Part shown: one piece after another, positions 19,656 through 41,589 of the stretch
How the letters are laid out: every line of letters begins with the position of its first letter
Numbering within the stretch: the first letter of the stretch is position 1
Assembly (NCBI GenBank): GCA_019694435.1
Contig: JAIBBZ010000002.1
Coordinates: forward strand, 186,001-250,000
DNA: 64,000 nucleotides
Direction of reading: 5' to 3'
DNA from: Pirellulales bacterium
GTDB taxonomy: Bacteria > Planctomycetota > Planctomycetia > Pirellulales > JAEUIK01
Made by a program: the position numbers and the translations under genes
The notes under the pieces: generated by a model
What the model saw: only the letters and a program-made list of their open reading frames with translations
The model's database searches: none
What the model was told of the DNA's origin: nothing

Positions 19656-20171
19656 GTTGGTTACCTCTTCCGGCGGTACCAGGCGACGGTTCCTCGCGTC
19701 CTTACGCGGCGCCCAGACGGTCATCCGTTTCGCAGGCAAGGATCGTGCCAGCCGTTTTGGGCACGATCCGCCTCCGGCGGCCGTCGCGCACTCGGGCCCC
19801 GTGGCCCGAGGCAATCTGACGCAGCTTTTGTTGCCGCCGGCAGACAAAAACCACGACACGCTTACTACGTAACCAAGTGTCTCCTTGCTCGCTGGAAGTT
19901 CGCTCGATTTTGACGATTTTTTCGGTCTCGGCTCGCAGCCTGGAAACCGTCTGAATGCATCATCGTAAATGTAGGCTATTTCGGCATTTACTGCCAATGA
20001 ATTACGCTTAGCTAGCGACTTATTTGGGCGCCAAACAGACCGCATCAATGGGGTCTGCCCGGAATGGGGGGGAGGTGTACCCGCAGAATCGGCTCAACCG
20101 TCGCGACCCTCCGGGTCGATCCAAGACCTGATTCGCCGCATTGCGGCGCAGGTCAGCCCCGGAGTTGGACG
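19656..20171. other. Divergent regulatory spacer upstream of the sigma gene
   Basis: 516 bp between two divergent genes. The right half is AT-rich by local standards. It contains the inverted repeat at 19965-19991 and a possible minus-strand promoter TTGGCA - 18 bp - TACATT reaching into that repeat. No gene is seen. Confidence 0.5.
19965..19991. promoter_or_regulatory. Inverted repeat GTAAATG-N13-CATTTAC, possible operator
   Basis: Perfect 7-bp arms at 19965-19971 and 19985-19991. The repeat lies in the AT-rich region upstream of the sigma gene and overlaps its possible promoter. An autoregulatory site for the HTH modules of that sigma factor is one possibility, not shown by the sequence. 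Confidence 0.45.
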
Positions 20172-35767: not shown

Positions 35768-36238
35768 TCAGCCTGCGTTGATTTGCACTTTCACGGCCTG
35801 AGGTGACTGCTTCTTTTTCAATCGCACGGTTAGCACGCCGTGCTGGTAATCGGCCGTCACGTCCTGGGAGTCGACTCCGCTGGGCAGGCCGATCGTGCGG
35901 CGAAAACGCCCCGCGCGGGTTTCGACGTGGTGAAAGTACTTGTCCGATTTCTCGGTGAGCTGTTCCTGCTTCTCGCCGGCAATAGTCAGTGACTCGCCGG
36001 TCGCGGTGATTTCGAGTTGCTGCGGATCGATGCCGGGCACCTCGACGCGAACGGTGACTTCGTCGTCGCTTTCCATCACGTCGAGCGGTGGAAAGGCCAT
36101 GCCAAACGTGCCGAGTGCGTTTTCGAGCGGGTTGCGGACCAGCGAGGCGAACATACGGTCCATTTCTTTCCCCAGGTCGCCCAAGGGTGAAATGTCGCCG
36201 CCCGAGGTGAACTTATTGCGCCAAGGAATCAGTGTCAT
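35768..36238 (-). CDS. Small heat-shock protein Hsp20 (third of three)
   Basis: ATP-independent holdase with an alpha-crystallin domain. 156 aa from the ATG at 36238, which has a GGAG 9 nt upstream; a longer frame exists but lacks a site. Alpha-crystallin domain about residues 45-140, with VRVEVPGIDPQQLEITATGE, FRRTIGLPSGVDSQDVTADY and GVLTVRLKKK. The C-terminal tail is PQAVKVQINAG; the usual IXI anchoring motif is VQI. Last gene of the trio, 93 bp after the second. Confidence 0.93.
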   Translation of the reverse strand: MTLIPWRNKFTSGGDISPLGDLGKEMDRMFASLVRNPLENALGTFGMAFPPLDVMESDDEVTVRVEVPGIDPQQLEITATGESLTIAGEKQEQLTEKSDKYFHHVETRAGRFRRTIGLPSGVDSQDVTADYQHGVLTVRLKKKQSPQAVKVQINAG

Positions 36239-36331: not shown

Positions 36332-36730
36332 CTAGGCCGACTGCACGGCGATCTTGCGCGGCTTGGCAGCTTCGACCTTCGGCAAGGTGAGCGTCAACAC
36401 GCCCGCCGCATAGGTGGCCGCGATGCGACTGCCGTCGATCTCTTCGCTGACACGAAAGCTGCGGTAGAAATCGCCCACGCCAAATTCCTCGGCCAGGAAG
36501 TTCACGCCTTCCTGCCGGGGTTGGACCTTACCGTGGATCGTCAGCTCGCCGTTTTCGAAGTGGATGTCGATATCTTCCGTGCGCACGCCGGGCATGTCGG
36601 CCACGACTTGCAACTGGTGCGGCATCTCGACGATATCGACAAACGGCCGGTAGCAACGCCCGCTGCGCGTGCGTTCGCTCGACTCGACCTGCTCGCCATG
36701 CTGCTGTGGGGCAACCACATGAGGCGTCAT
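36332..36730 (-). CDS. Small heat-shock protein Hsp20 (second of three)
   Basis: 132 aa. The start ATG at 36730 is fixed by AGGAG 8 nt upstream. The alpha-crystallin domain (about residues 30-120) includes VVADMPGVRTEDIDIHFENG, FYRSFRVSEEIDGSRIAATY and GVLTLTLPKVEAAKPRKIAV. The C-terminal IAV is the IXI-like anchor. The N-terminal arm is short and polar. It differs clearly from its two neighbours, so the trio could form mixed oligomers; that is inference. Confidence 0.93.
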   Translation of the reverse strand: MTPHVVAPQQHGEQVESSERTRSGRCYRPFVDIVEMPHQLQVVADMPGVRTEDIDIHFENGELTIHGKVQPRQEGVNFLAEEFGVGDFYRSFRVSEEIDGSRIAATYAAGVLTLTLPKVEAAKPRKIAVQSA

Positions 36731-36791: not shown

Positions 36792-37253
36792 TCAGTTGCT
36801 CGATACCTGAATCTTGCGCGGCCGGGCCGCCTCGGCCTTGGGTAGCACGATCGATAGCACGCCGTCCTTGAGCGTCGCCTCGACGCGGTTCGCATCGACG
36901 TCGATCGGTAACCGCACCACGCGACTGAAGGTTCCGGCGCCGCGTTCGCGCCGATGCACCTTGGAGCCCTCCGGCTCGCGAATGGTCCGCGCACCGCGAA
37001 GCGACAGCTCGTTACCGACGACCGAGACCTCGAGGTCACCCGGCTCGACACCCGGCAACTCGGCTTCGGCCCGCAGCTCGTGTTCGGTTTCCCAGAGATT
37101 GAGGGCCGGGAACGCGCGCGTCCCCGTCAGCGCCGCGGCTCCTGCCTGGGGCCAGTTCGCGACGTTGCCCATCACATCGCCCATCAACCGGTCCATTTCA
37201 TCGCGCCACTGCGACAGGGCCGGCATCCGATAATTCACTCGACGCAGCACCAT
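36792..37253 (-). CDS. Small heat-shock protein Hsp20 (first of three)
   Basis: 153 aa, ATG at 37253 with GGAGGAG 5-6 nt upstream. N-terminal arm MVLRRVNYRMPALSQWRDEM with an amphipathic helix, then an alpha-crystallin domain with LRAEAELPGVEPGDLEVSVV, FSRVVRLPIDVDANRVEATL and GVLSIVLPKAEAARPRKIQV (IQV anchor). First gene of the operon, 61 bp before the second. It is the gene nearest the sigma-54-type promoter at 37359-37374. Confidence 0.94.
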   Translation of the reverse strand: MVLRRVNYRMPALSQWRDEMDRLMGDVMGNVANWPQAGAAALTGTRAFPALNLWETEHELRAEAELPGVEPGDLEVSVVGNELSLRGARTIREPEGSKVHRRERGAGTFSRVVRLPIDVDANRVEATLKDGVLSIVLPKAEAARPRKIQVSSN

Positions 37254-37358
37254 GACGACTCCTCCCTCAGCTCATTCGTGCCCCGCAGCGAGCGCTTGGC
37301 GGTCGAACGACCGCTGGAGAAACGCCCTGCTCTGGGGGCCGTGTGCCAAGGCCAAATC

Positions 37359-37374
37359 GCAAAGGCTGTGCCAA
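37359..37374 (-). promoter_or_regulatory. Sigma-54 (RpoN) type promoter of the Hsp20 trio
   Basis: The minus strand reads TTGGCACAGCCTTTGC: TGGCAC at -24, TTGC at -12, with exactly 10 bp between the invariant GG (37372-37371) and GC (37360-37359). The predicted start is about 95 nt before the first hsp20 gene. Only the base after TGGCAC (A for G) and the base after TTGC (G) depart from the usual consensus. Confidence 0.75.
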
Positions 37375-37460
37375 AGCGACGAGCGAAGGATGCGATCCGT
37401 AACTGCTTATAAGATAATTGCTTGCGTCTCTTGGTGCAGACGAGGTCGGCGAGTCGTTCT

Positions 37461-37512
37461 TGCCATTTTGGCAGGCGTGTTTCATGCACTTGGGACAGGT
37501 GTCAATTTGGCA
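37461..37512. promoter_or_regulatory. Two related palindromes, candidate enhancer-binding sites
   Basis: TGCCATTTTGGCA (37461-37473) is a perfect 5-3-5 palindrome, and TGTCAATTTGGCA (37500-37512) differs from it at two positions. They lie about 90 and 130 bp upstream of the -24 element, the usual place for sites of sigma-54 activator proteins. The activator is not encoded in the window. Confidence 0.55.
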
Positions 37513-37789: not shown

Positions 37790-38278
37790 ATGCGCTTTAC
37801 GCTGATTGACCGGGTCATCGAGTTACAGCCAGGCAGCCGCATCAAAGCGGTCAAGAACCTGTCGATGGCCGAGGAGTACCTCGCGGACCACTTTCCCGGT
37901 TTTCCGGTCATGCCTGGGGTGATGATGCTCGAGGCACTCACCCAGGCCAGTGCGTGGCTGATTCGCGCAAGCGAAGACTTTGCCCACAGCGTCGTCGAGC
38001 TGAAAGAGGCGCGGAACGTCAAGTACGGCAATTTCGTCGAGCCGGGGCAAGTGCTCACCGTTTCGGCGGAGATCACTGACATGGCTCCCGGCGAGACGCG
38101 TTTAAAAGCCGAGGGGAGCGTGGGCGAGATCAAGACGGTCTCGGCGCGGCTGGTACTGCGGCGCTACAACCTCGCCGACAGCGACCCCGAAAAAGCCGTG
38201 GCCGACGTGGTGGTGAAACAAAAGCTGCGCGAGTTGTTCGCGTTGCTCTGGAAAGACGCCGCGGCCGCAGCCTCTTGA
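37790..38278 (+). CDS. FabZ-like 3-hydroxyacyl-ACP dehydratase
   Basis: Removes water from 3-hydroxyacyl-ACP. The 162-aa hot-dog-fold protein carries the active-site helix DHFPGFPVMPGVMMLEALTQ with catalytic His34 and Glu48 (FabZ-type, Glu rather than Asp). A substrate channel segment is ARNVKYGNFVEPGQVLTVSAEI. It is about 20 residues longer than typical FabZ at the C-terminus. First gene of a five-gene acyl-chain cluster behind its own promoter. Confidence 0.9.
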   Translation: MRFTLIDRVIELQPGSRIKAVKNLSMAEEYLADHFPGFPVMPGVMMLEALTQASAWLIRASEDFAHSVVELKEARNVKYGNFVEPGQVLTVSAEITDMAPGETRLKAEGSVGEIKTVSARLVLRRYNLADSDPEKAVADVVVKQKLRELFALLWKDAAAAAS

Positions 38279-38315
38279 GGCGCGTCGCGTCGTGAACCGG
38301 CATTGGCGTTGAAGC

Positions 38316-39077
38316 ATGTCCGTGGTACCCGACCTCCAAGGCAAGACGGCGATTGTGACCGGCGGCAGCCGGGGAATCGGCCGCGCCTGCGCCGTGGCTT
38401 TGGCCCGGGCCGGATGCCAGGTAGCGATCGTCTATCACAGCAATTCTGCCGCGGCCGAATCGTTCGTCGCCGAACTGCGAGAGGGCGGCCATGCGGTTGA
38501 GGCCCATCAGGCCGACGTCCGCGACGCGCAGCGCGCTCAAACCTTGGTCGACCAATTGGCCGAGCAGTGGAATCGGCTCGACATCCTCGTCAATTCGGCC
38601 GGCGTCATTCGCGACGGCCTGTTTGCCGCGATGACCGACGAGCAATGGCACGACGTGATCGCGACCAATCTGCACGGAACCTACAACTATTGCCACGCGG
38701 CGGTCCGGCCCATGCTGGCCAACCGCTCGGGCAGCATCGTCAACCTGTCCAGCGTGGCCAGCGAATTCGGCAACCGCGGCCAGGTGAACTATGCGGCCAG
38801 CAAGGGCGCGATCGACGGGATGACGCGCTGCCTGGCCAAGGAAGTCGCCGCCCGCAAGGTGCGTGTGAATGCCGTCGCGCCGGGCATGATCGAGACCGAA
38901 ATGAGCGAAGCGGTGCGCAACCTGGCGCCCGACCTGGTCAAGCAAGCGATTCCGCTGCGCCGGGTGGGCCGGCCGGAAGAAGTCGCCGCGCTGGTCGCGT
39001 TTCTGGCCAGTGACGCGGCCAGCTACATCACCGGCCAGGTCATCCGCATCGACGGGGGGCTCAGCCTGGGTCACTAG
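38316..39077 (+). CDS. fabG: FabG-like 3-oxoacyl-ACP reductase
   Basis: NADPH-dependent reduction of 3-oxoacyl-ACP. 253 aa, classical SDR: cofactor motif [11 protein letters not shown] (residues 14-24), NSAG (93-96), and the catalytic Ser145/Ser146 region with Tyr159 and Lys163 (NYAASKGA). The C-terminal [11 protein letters not shown] is typical of FabG. It lies 37 bp after the dehydratase gene and is probably co-transcribed with it. Confidence 0.92.
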
Positions 39078-39259
39078 CCGCGGCCGCGCGACGGGCGGCT
39101 TGCGCCCTGTCGTCCTCCGCGAATCCCCGAACTGTAACAACGCGAGGCGGATTCACGCCCAACAAGACATCCACGCCGACGAGATTCCCAGCGGTGCAGC
39201 GACCGCGGGCGGCGGCGTGAACGATTCATTCCCCCCAACTTTGAGGAGACTTACGAGCC

Positions 39260-39643
39260 ATGCCCACCACCGAAGAAATTTATGACAAGGTCAAGACGGC
39301 CCTGGTCGACGCCCTGGGGGTCGACGAAGACGAAGTCACGCCCGACGCGACATTGACGGGCGACTTGGGCGCCGAGAGCATCGATTTTCTCGACATCGTG
39401 TTCCGGCTCGAAAAGGCCTTCGGCATCAAGATTCCGCGCGGCGAACTGTTTCCCGAGAACATCCTGACCGACGCGCAATATGTCAAAGACGGCAAGTTTA
39501 CCGAGGCGGGTCTCGACGAGCTGCGCAAGCGGATGCCGTTTGCCAACCTGACCGAGTTTGCCAAGGACCCGCGCCGCGACGCGTTTCAGAACCTGTTCAC
39601 GGTCGAGACGATCTGCAAGTACCTGGCGACGAAAGTCGGTTAA
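39260..39643 (+). CDS. Acyl carrier protein, extended form
   Basis: Carries acyl chains on 4'-phosphopantetheine. The N-terminal 80 residues are a normal ACP, with the attachment serine Ser40 in LGAESIDFLDIVFRLEKAFG. The protein continues about 45 residues beyond the usual end (RKRMPFANLTEFAKDPRRDA and on), giving 127 aa. GAGGAG precedes the ATG by about 11 nt. It is flanked by fabG and a second dehydratase gene, so it is probably dedicated to this cluster rather than the housekeeping ACP. Confidence 0.9.
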   Translation: MPTTEEIYDKVKTALVDALGVDEDEVTPDATLTGDLGAESIDFLDIVFRLEKAFGIKIPRGELFPENILTDAQYVKDGKFTEAGLDELRKRMPFANLTEFAKDPRRDAFQNLFTVETICKYLATKVG

Positions 39644-39716
39644 CGCGGCTGGCCAGCGCCCCGGCCCCCTGGGGCGATGATTGTGAAGACCGGCCCGCCG
39701 GCAAGTTGAGCGAACC

Positions 39717-40250
39717 ATGCGTTGGATCTGGATCGACAAGTTCATCGAGTTCGAGAGCGGCCGTCGCGCCAAGGCGATCAAGAATCTGTCCTTGGCCGAG
39801 GAGCACTTGCACGACCACTTTCCCGGATTTCCGGTGATGCCCAACACCTTGATCATCGAGGGGTTGGCTCAAACCGGCGGCATTCTCGTCGGCGAGCACA
39901 GCCAGTTCGAGGAGAAAGTGATCCTGGCCAAGGTGCCTAAGGCCGTGTTCCACTTTGCCGCGGTGCCGGGCGACACGCTGATCTACGAGGCCACGATCGA
40001 GGACATCAAAGAGGACGGGGCGATCGTGTCGTGCACGAGCCACGTGGGCGAGCGGTTGCAGGGCGAGGTCGAAATCGTCTTCGCCCACCTCGACGACAGC
40101 CAGCGATTGCGAAACCTGTTCGAGCCGAAGAACTTTGTCTTTACCATGAAGCTGCTGGGTGTGTTCGACGTCGGGGGAGCGGCCGGTGCCGAGCCGCCGG
40201 CCTGGAGCAAGCTCAAGACGCAGATCGATCCGGGCACGGGCTCGCTGTGA
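39717..40250 (+). CDS. Second FabZ-like dehydratase
   Basis: 177 aa, hot-dog fold, with HFPGFPVMPNTLIIEGLAQT; catalytic His34 and Glu48 occupy the same positions as in the first dehydratase, and the N-terminal 40 residues of the two proteins are clearly similar (MRWIWIDKFIEFESG against MRFTLIDRVIELQPG). The two probably arose by duplication and diverged. The different residues lining the active-site helix suggest a different chain length or a FabA-like isomerase role, which the sequence cannot settle. Confidence 0.9.
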   Translation: MRWIWIDKFIEFESGRRAKAIKNLSLAEEHLHDHFPGFPVMPNTLIIEGLAQTGGILVGEHSQFEEKVILAKVPKAVFHFAAVPGDTLIYEATIEDIKEDGAIVSCTSHVGERLQGEVEIVFAHLDDSQRLRNLFEPKNFVFTMKLLGVFDVGGAAGAEPPAWSKLKTQIDPGTGSL

Positions 40251-40302
40251 GCGGCCCGGATCGCGCAGAACCTTACGCGAGTCGTGCAGGGAGAAGTTGA
40301 CC

Positions 40303-41589
40303 ATGCGGCGTCGCGTCGTCATCACGGGAATGGGTTGCCTGACGCCCGTCGGCAACGACGTCGAGTCGATGTGGAAGGCCGTGCTCGCCGGGCAGTCGGG
40401 CGTCGGACCGACCACGCTGTTCGACGCGAGCAACTTTCCCACGCGGATTTCGGCCGAGGTCAAGAACTGGGACATCGGCCAGGCGGGCGAAGACCCGGCG
40501 CTGTGGCAAAGCCACGGCCGGCACACGCAGTTTGCCGTCGGGGCGGCCAGGCAAGCCGTGCGCGACGCCGGGCTCGAAGACGGCAAGTTCGACCCGTTGC
40601 GGTTCGGCATCTATCTCGGCAGCGGAGAAGGGCAGCAAAATTTCGATCATTTCTCGCAGATGATGGTCGCTGCGCTGCGTGACGACGGTTCGCTCGACGT
40701 GGCGGCCTTCACCCGTAAGGGCCTCGAAATTCTCGATCCGACGGCCGAACTCGAACAAGAACCGAACATGGCGGCCGCGCATCTGGCCGGGCTGTTCAAT
40801 GCCCAGGGGCCCAATGCCAACTGTCTAACGGCCTGCTCGGCCAGCGCTCAGGCCCTGGGCGAGGCGGCCGAGATGATCCGCCGCGGCGACGTCGATCTGA
40901 TGCTCTCCGGCGGCACGCACAGCATGATTCACCCCTTCGGCGTGACGGGCTTCAACCTGCTCACGGCCTTGAGCACCAGCAACGACCAGCCAACCAAGGC
41001 CTCGCGCCCGTTCGACCTGCACCGCGACGGCTTCGTGCTGGGCGAAGGCGCCGCGATGCTGATCCTGGAAGAGTACGAACACGCCCGCCGGCGCGGCGCC
41101 AAGATCCACGGCGAGCTGCGCGGCTACGGTTCGACGGCCGATGCCTACCGGATCACGGATATTCATCCCGAAGGACGCGGCGCGGCGGCCTGCATTCAGA
41201 TGGCCCTGGCCGACGCCGGGCTGAATGTCACGGACCTGCATTACATCAACGCCCACGGGACCAGCACCACCGTCAACGACAAGACCGAGACGATGGCGAT
41301 CAAGCGGGCCCTCGGCGAGCACGCCTACAAGGTGCCCGTCTCGAGCACCAAGAGCATGATGGGGCACCTGATCGCGGCCGGCGGTGCGACCGAGTTGATC
41401 ATCTGCCTGCTGGCCATTCGCGATAACGTGCTACCGCCGACGATCAACTACGAAACGCCCGACCCGAACTGCGATCTCGACTACGTACCTAATCAGGCCC
41501 GGCCGGGGCGCTGTGATTACGCCGCCAGCAACAGCTTTGGTTTCGGCGGGCAGAACATCACGCTCATTGCCGGGCGTTTCGCGGCCTGA
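40303..41589 (+). CDS. Beta-ketoacyl-ACP synthase (KAS I/II type)
   Basis: Condenses malonyl-ACP with an acyl-ACP. 428 aa from the ATG at 40303 (GGAG 9 nt upstream; the longer frame overlaps the preceding gene without a site). Catalytic triad Cys178 (LTACSASAQ), His318 (NAHGTST) and His355 (MMGHLIAAGG). The N-terminus MRRRVVITGMGCLTPVGN is typical of FabF. It is a sequence-divergent member and last in the fabZ-fabG-acp-fabZ order. No fabD or fabH is nearby. Confidence 0.92.
   Translation: MRRRVVITGMGCLTPVGNDVESMWKAVLAGQSGVGPTTLFDASNFPTRISAEVKNWDIGQAGEDPALWQSHGRHTQFAVGAARQAVRDAGLEDGKFDPLRFGIYLGSGEGQQNFDHFSQMMVAALRDDGSLDVAAFTRKGLEILDPTAELEQEPNMAAAHLAGLFNAQGPNANCLTACSASAQALGEAAEMIRRGDVDLMLSGGTHSMIHPFGVTGFNLLTALSTSNDQPTKASRPFDLHRDGFVLGEGAAMLILEEYEHARRRGAKIHGELRGYGSTADAYRITDIHPEGRGAAACIQMALADAGLNVTDLHYINAHGTSTTVNDKTETMAIKRALGEHAYKVPVSSTKSMMGHLIAAGGATELIICLLAIRDNVLPPTINYETPDPNCDLDYVPNQARPGRCDYAASNSFGFGGQNITLIAGRFAA

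Follow-up and report, generated by a model that had tools for sequence, protein, structure and literature searches.

The hsp20 genes and their upstream region

The window analysed here is a 64-kb stretch of DNA from a Pirellulales bacterium. It contains three tandem genes on the minus strand that the earlier note had described as an Hsp20 trio, and this description was correct, as all three open reading frames 3' of the putative promoter were positive for the HSP20 domain (Pfam PF00011). The features of the locus are as follows:

35768..36238, minus strand: hsp20 gene 3, 156 aa from the ATG at 36238 (PF00011, E=6.5e-21)
36332..36730, minus strand: hsp20 gene 2, 132 aa from the ATG at 36730 (PF00011, E=8.5e-21)
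36792..37253, minus strand: hsp20 gene 1, 153 aa, first after the promoter (PF00011, E=1.1e-21)
37359..37374, minus strand: sigma-54 -24/-12 promoter element TTGGCACAGCCTTTGC, a match to the consensus, kept in relatives
37461..37473, no strand assigned: proximal upstream activator site (putative enhancer) TGCCATTTTGGCA, a palindrome, kept in relatives
37500..37512, no strand assigned: distal upstream activator site (putative) TGTCAATTTGGCA, 39 bp from the proximal site

The ATG of hsp20 gene 1 is preceded by a GGAGG ribosome site. Upstream of the trio, on the opposite strand, there is a FabA/FabZ-like gene, and a compact fatty-acid-synthesis-like cluster adjoins the trio at 37790-41589, with two FabA/FabZ-like genes and genes for a short-chain dehydrogenase (FabG-like), an acyl-carrier-protein-like and a ketosynthase-like protein.

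The element TTGGCACAGCCTTTGC matches the sigma-54 consensus YTGGCACR-N4-TTGCW with GG-N10-GC exactly, and the 10-bp spacing between GG and GC on the minus strand (37374-37359) was confirmed. Transcription of the trio from this promoter would start near 37348. The two palindromes, which had been placed approximately 90 and 130 bp upstream and 39 bp apart, were found to lie 86 bp (TGCCATTTTGGCA) and 125 bp (TGTCAATTTGGCA) from the -24 element, with their starts indeed separated by 39 bp.

The 64-kb window has three occurrences of the palindrome TGYCAN3TGRCA and only two exact matches to the sigma-54 consensus. The other exact TGGCAC-N5-TTGC match, TGGCACGATCCTTGC at 19736-19750 on the minus strand, has no palindrome nearby. 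When up to two mismatches were allowed, the sigma-54 consensus alone was not enriched in the window (78 matches versus 74 expected). Because sigma-54-like matches by themselves are no commoner than chance, the whole case rests on conservation; it is the combination of palindrome and promoter, and its conservation, that exceeds chance.

Conservation of the element and its target genes

We searched the upstream DNA of hsp20 clusters in relatives from the same order for a palindrome that keeps at least 9 of its 10 defined bases and, at a distance of 60-140 bp downstream, a strong -24/-12 match. The earlier note had made its proposal dependent on conservation, and the combination was found upstream of hsp20 pairs or trios in 30 of 34 genomes and in 15 of 15 families, compared with 1 positive among 3,400 shuffled sequences (dinucleotide-based, approximate first-order resamples). 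Single hsp20 genes of G008, G016 and G026 also carry palindrome and promoter; those of G006, G012 and G013, and the fourth hsp20 gene of the own genome, were without them in this test.

Base preferences at positions that the search had left free were examined in about 247 sites. The base preceding TGGCAC was T in 57%, the base following it was a purine in 88%, and the base following TTGC was A or T in 73%. The palindrome itself was extended to C-TGCCA-N3-TGGCA-G, with 70% C and 44% G at the flanks. These preferences agree with what a real promoter and a real protein-binding site would be expected to show. Together, conservation and the consensus-like free bases support the proposed reading of the locus as a putative sigma-54 promoter with two candidate activator sites for the hsp20 trio. 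The scope of that proposal was right for hsp20 but too narrow, as the element marks a wider putative chaperone regulon that includes groEL, dnaK-clpB and grpE.

In the own genome the pattern of palindrome and promoter was found at two loci, in front of the hsp20 trio and upstream of groEL (L092, on its minus strand). The main dnaK (L328) is also preceded by palindromes and a sigma-54 element, which were missed by the strict pattern, as the -24 starts with CGG and the gap is 108, and were recovered through the HSP70 loci. A blind scan of the order was positive in 86 of 197 genomes, and the reversed-pattern control gave no matches in either the 197 order genomes or 294 genomes of the phylum. Among the 105 sites read in the order, 75 precede groEL (some via groES), 14 (12+2) hsp20 and 9 dnaK, such that at least 98 were at chaperone genes; the remaining 7 had no assigned target. 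All eight genomes with readable DNA upstream of the main dnaK had palindrome and promoter there, often as two palindromes 40 bp apart and about 108 bp before the sigma-54 element, and second palindrome copies near 40 bp recur at other sites too. Palindromes were found at none of 19 loci of other HSP70-family genes. At the dnaK loci read in the order clpB follows dnaK, so ClpB is probably encoded in the same transcript.

Strict sites were identified in 42 of 294 genomes sampled across the phylum, and 25 of the 29 loci read precede groEL, dnaK, clpB or hsp20 (L216 was judged by eye); these sites are not phylogenetically independent. The phylum counts are lower bounds because the strict pattern is insensitive and overlooks the sites at dnaK even within the own order. 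A relaxed version of the element was common at dnaK loci of further families, and no convincing element was found at the dnaK genes of G205, G331, G360, G410 and G441. In anammox-type genomes dnaK comes after grpE, and the element may stand before grpE in these (G467).

The element extends through Planctomycetota and sporadically beyond. In a scan of 84,980 species, some of them present in more than one collection, 51 of the 80 loci listed were planctomycete and 29 were not, and a chaperone gene was downstream in 47 of the 51 and 7 of the 29, respectively, among the matches listed (the assignment of a Pontibacter hsp20 is weak). The listed matches include groEL of Blastopirellula marina and Rhodopirellula maiorica and dnaK of Kuenenia stuttgartiensis. 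Also among them are five loci at which dnaK or groEL is preceded by palindrome and promoter (L353, L354, L366, L380 and L410), from Poribacteria, Bacteroidia, Puniceicoccales, Verrucomicrobia and Lentisphaerae, suggesting that the element's origin is older than the phylum.

The gaps between palindrome and promoter cluster at about 77, 88 and 98 bp, with a period of 10.4 bp. This helical phasing (R=0.37) was reached by none of 2,000 jittered sets. As phasing of this kind is a requirement of activation via a DNA loop, we took it as a sign of the mechanism. In one genome, G253, clpB and a groEL-groES-groEL-dnaJ-grpE cluster each have a sigma-54 promoter; the two promoters are opposed, and the DNA between them (L304, 9576-9866) contains three palindromes, a possible shared bidirectional enhancer.

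Heat-shock regulators and known systems

In bacteria, groE and dnaK are commonly controlled through palindromes of the CIRCE/HrcA kind. In the relatives of the Pirellulales genome HrcA (PF01628) was found in 0 of 58, and in 7 of 14 control genomes. RpoH was above the cut-off of TIGR02392 in none of the 58 relatives and in 2 control genomes, this being a proteobacterial model that a divergent functional equivalent could escape. Sigma-54 (PF04552) was identified in the own genome (E=2.2e-64) and in 56 of 58 relatives.

The control of the heat-shock response in planctomycetes has so far been unsettled. The small heat-shock gene ibpB of E. coli has a sigma-54 promoter that is added to sigma-32 control, whereas here no sigma-32 was detected. 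Closer at hand, Studholme and Dixon reportedly predicted sigma-54 promoters and sigma-54 activators (EBPs) in silico in Pirellula sp. strain 1 in 2004. This strain is a close relative, and the list may already include chaperone promoters.

A 2025 survey (PMC12316311), in its accessible part, describes predicted sigma-54 promoters as enriched at chaperone genes in Planctomycetota (Planctomycetia) and Bacteroidota. The enriched classes given there are GroEL, GroES, IbpA/Hsp20, GrpE, DnaJ, DnaK and ATP-dependent proteases, and EBP specificity is stated not to be available for all of the organisms. The sigma factor and the gene classes are thus the same as in this study; unlike here, neither a common enhancer motif nor phasing nor an activator is assigned in that part of the survey. 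In Chlamydia trachomatis, another PVC bacterium, hrcA-grpE-dnaK is preceded by tandem sigma-54 and sigma-66 promoters, and the sigma-54 of this species is served by the two-component EBP pair AtoS-AtoC (PMC8762339). The likeness lies in the sigma-54 promoter before the dnaK operon and the two-component pair. In contrast to the regulon described here, which also covers groEL and hsp20 and for which no HrcA was found, Chlamydia has kept HrcA as well as a housekeeping promoter in tandem, and rpoN is lowered on heat shock. Heat shock of Rhodopirellula baltica induces Hsp20, GroEL, DnaK, ClpB and GrpE with the rpoN transcript unchanged; no expected sigma factor genes were seen in that response, and the cascade was concluded to differ (PMC2754498). 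Because of these earlier reports, the prediction that sigma-54 controls chaperone genes is not a new one. The open literature searched yielded no report of the shared palindromic enhancer or its phasing, of a unified set of targets or of a candidate two-component activator.

The candidate activator and the proposed switch

Sixteen full sigma-54 activator domains were found in the own genome. In a reciprocal-best test against six distant small genomes, one EBP was the sole one of the 16 with reciprocal best full-length matches in 5 of the 6, and its orthologue in the sixth (G467) was found by a later search. This regulator (G000:C3:329951-331357) consists of a receiver, an AAA+ domain and a Fis-type HTH, with PF00072, PF00158 (Sigma54_activat) and PF02954 (HTH_8) all above the Pfam cut-off. 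Its gene lies apart from the hsp20 trio. A histidine kinase gene (HisKA/HATPase) is directly upstream, in the order pnp-kinase-activator-mutL. The kinase is beside the regulator in relatives also, usually as pnp, kinase, regulator, with mutL added in this taxonomic order; the pair strikingly often adjoins pnp (L301, L302, L305, L307, L309, L315-L317).

The regulator gene is immediately 5' of dnaK in seven genomes (G212, G231, G239, G254, G259, G262 and G357), and the palindrome mostly lies between the two genes. In G207 and G350 the regulator gene is at most about 3 kb from dnaK, and the adjacency was seen in at least seven families. All dnaK-adjacent and pnp-linked regulators that were sequenced here formed one group in a quick tree (support 99), which also took in a further G479 paralogue, and the recognition helix G-ERTLYRK is nearly invariant among the orthologues. 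Since the regulator gene adjoins dnaK in at least seven families, the activator is likely to be one phylum-wide histidine kinase/NtrC-like regulator pair. Presence or absence of an activator was not discriminating, as an EBP match at 1e-60 was found in 294 of 294 phylum genomes; the element-bearing genomes G329, G322, G310 and G197 had only weaker matches. A search for autoregulation identified palindromes near the EBP's own gene at 0 of 16 EBP loci.

The arrangement resembles that of NtrC/NtrB in having a receiver, Sigma54_activat and HTH_8 in one protein, a HisKA/HATPase kinase beside it and paired palindromes upstream of a -24/-12 element. The NtrC site is longer than, and unlike, the 13-bp TGCCA-N3-TGGCA palindrome, and the predicted targets here are general chaperones.

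We consider it highly probable that the hsp20 trio belongs to a sigma-54 chaperone regulon of planctomycetes with an NtrC-like two-component activator. In the proposed mechanism, RNA polymerase with sigma-54 would be held closed at the -24/-12 element. The candidate regulator, presumably switched by phosphorylation, would bind the TGYCA-N3-TGRCA palindromes, loop the DNA in a manner dependent on the face of the helix and open the promoter through ATP hydrolysis. The signal may be heat or misfolded protein. The same switch would control groES/groEL and dnaK-clpB, and in other genomes grpE/dnaJ too. A broader reading, which we favor with some reserve, is that one sigma-54 two-component master regulator governs the cytoplasmic heat-shock response of Planctomycetota (DnaK-ClpB, GroES-GroEL, Hsp20 and GrpE/DnaJ) in place of sigma-32/HrcA, and that it is ancestral to its relatives in Verrucomicrobia, Lentisphaerae, Poribacteria and perhaps Bacteroidota. 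With such a switch, the capacity for folding would be set by a phosphorelay and by a promoter that needs ATP and depends strictly on its activator, in contrast to control by sigma-factor stability or a temperature-sensitive repressor. What the analysis offers for direct testing is one specified pair of regulator and kinase, a site of 13 bp and a small set of predicted targets.

An alternative that we regard as rather improbable is that regulon and enhancer are real and the activator is another EBP, or several paralogues each serving its own target. The own genome has fifteen further EBPs, the binding specificity of an HTH is not readable from sequence here, and a different EBP gene, L006, is convergent after dnaK-clpB (L468, G000:C69, 4191-5778), and another EBP gene follows dnaK-clpB in G271. 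However, the G271 neighbor differs in type (its best match is L014), and no such EBP is downstream of dnaK-clpB in G001, G005, G019, G037 and G006. L006 was rejected as the activator, its arrangement not being kept in the relatives read. By contrast, it is the pnp/mutL-linked regulator that has dnaK directly after it in at least seven families, and it alone has full-length reciprocal best matches throughout.

Another reading, which we hold to be very unlikely, takes the palindromes as binding sites for a classical repressor or some other factor, with transcription from a promoter of the sigma-70 type and the -24/-12 match as incidental. The widespread CIRCE/HrcA arrangement at groE and dnaK gives this idea its precedent; however, the palindrome is unlike CIRCE, HrcA was not found in the relatives searched, the sites are placed 74-100 bp before the -24, in phase with the helix, and do not overlap the promoter, and the free bases at the flanks agree with the sigma-54 consensus. 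That the resemblance arose by chance in GC-rich intergenic DNA would fit the lack of enrichment of the sigma-54 consensus in the window and can be practically dismissed, given the empty reversed-pattern controls, the single positive shuffle and targets that are almost all chaperone genes.

A point that may count against the candidate is its sigma-54 contact loop, which reads GAFTDA in the own regulator and in that of G022, and GAFTGA or GSFTGA in most orthologues. Some Pirellulales regulators (L269, L270 and L278) have GAFTDA or GSFTDA in place of GAFTGA.
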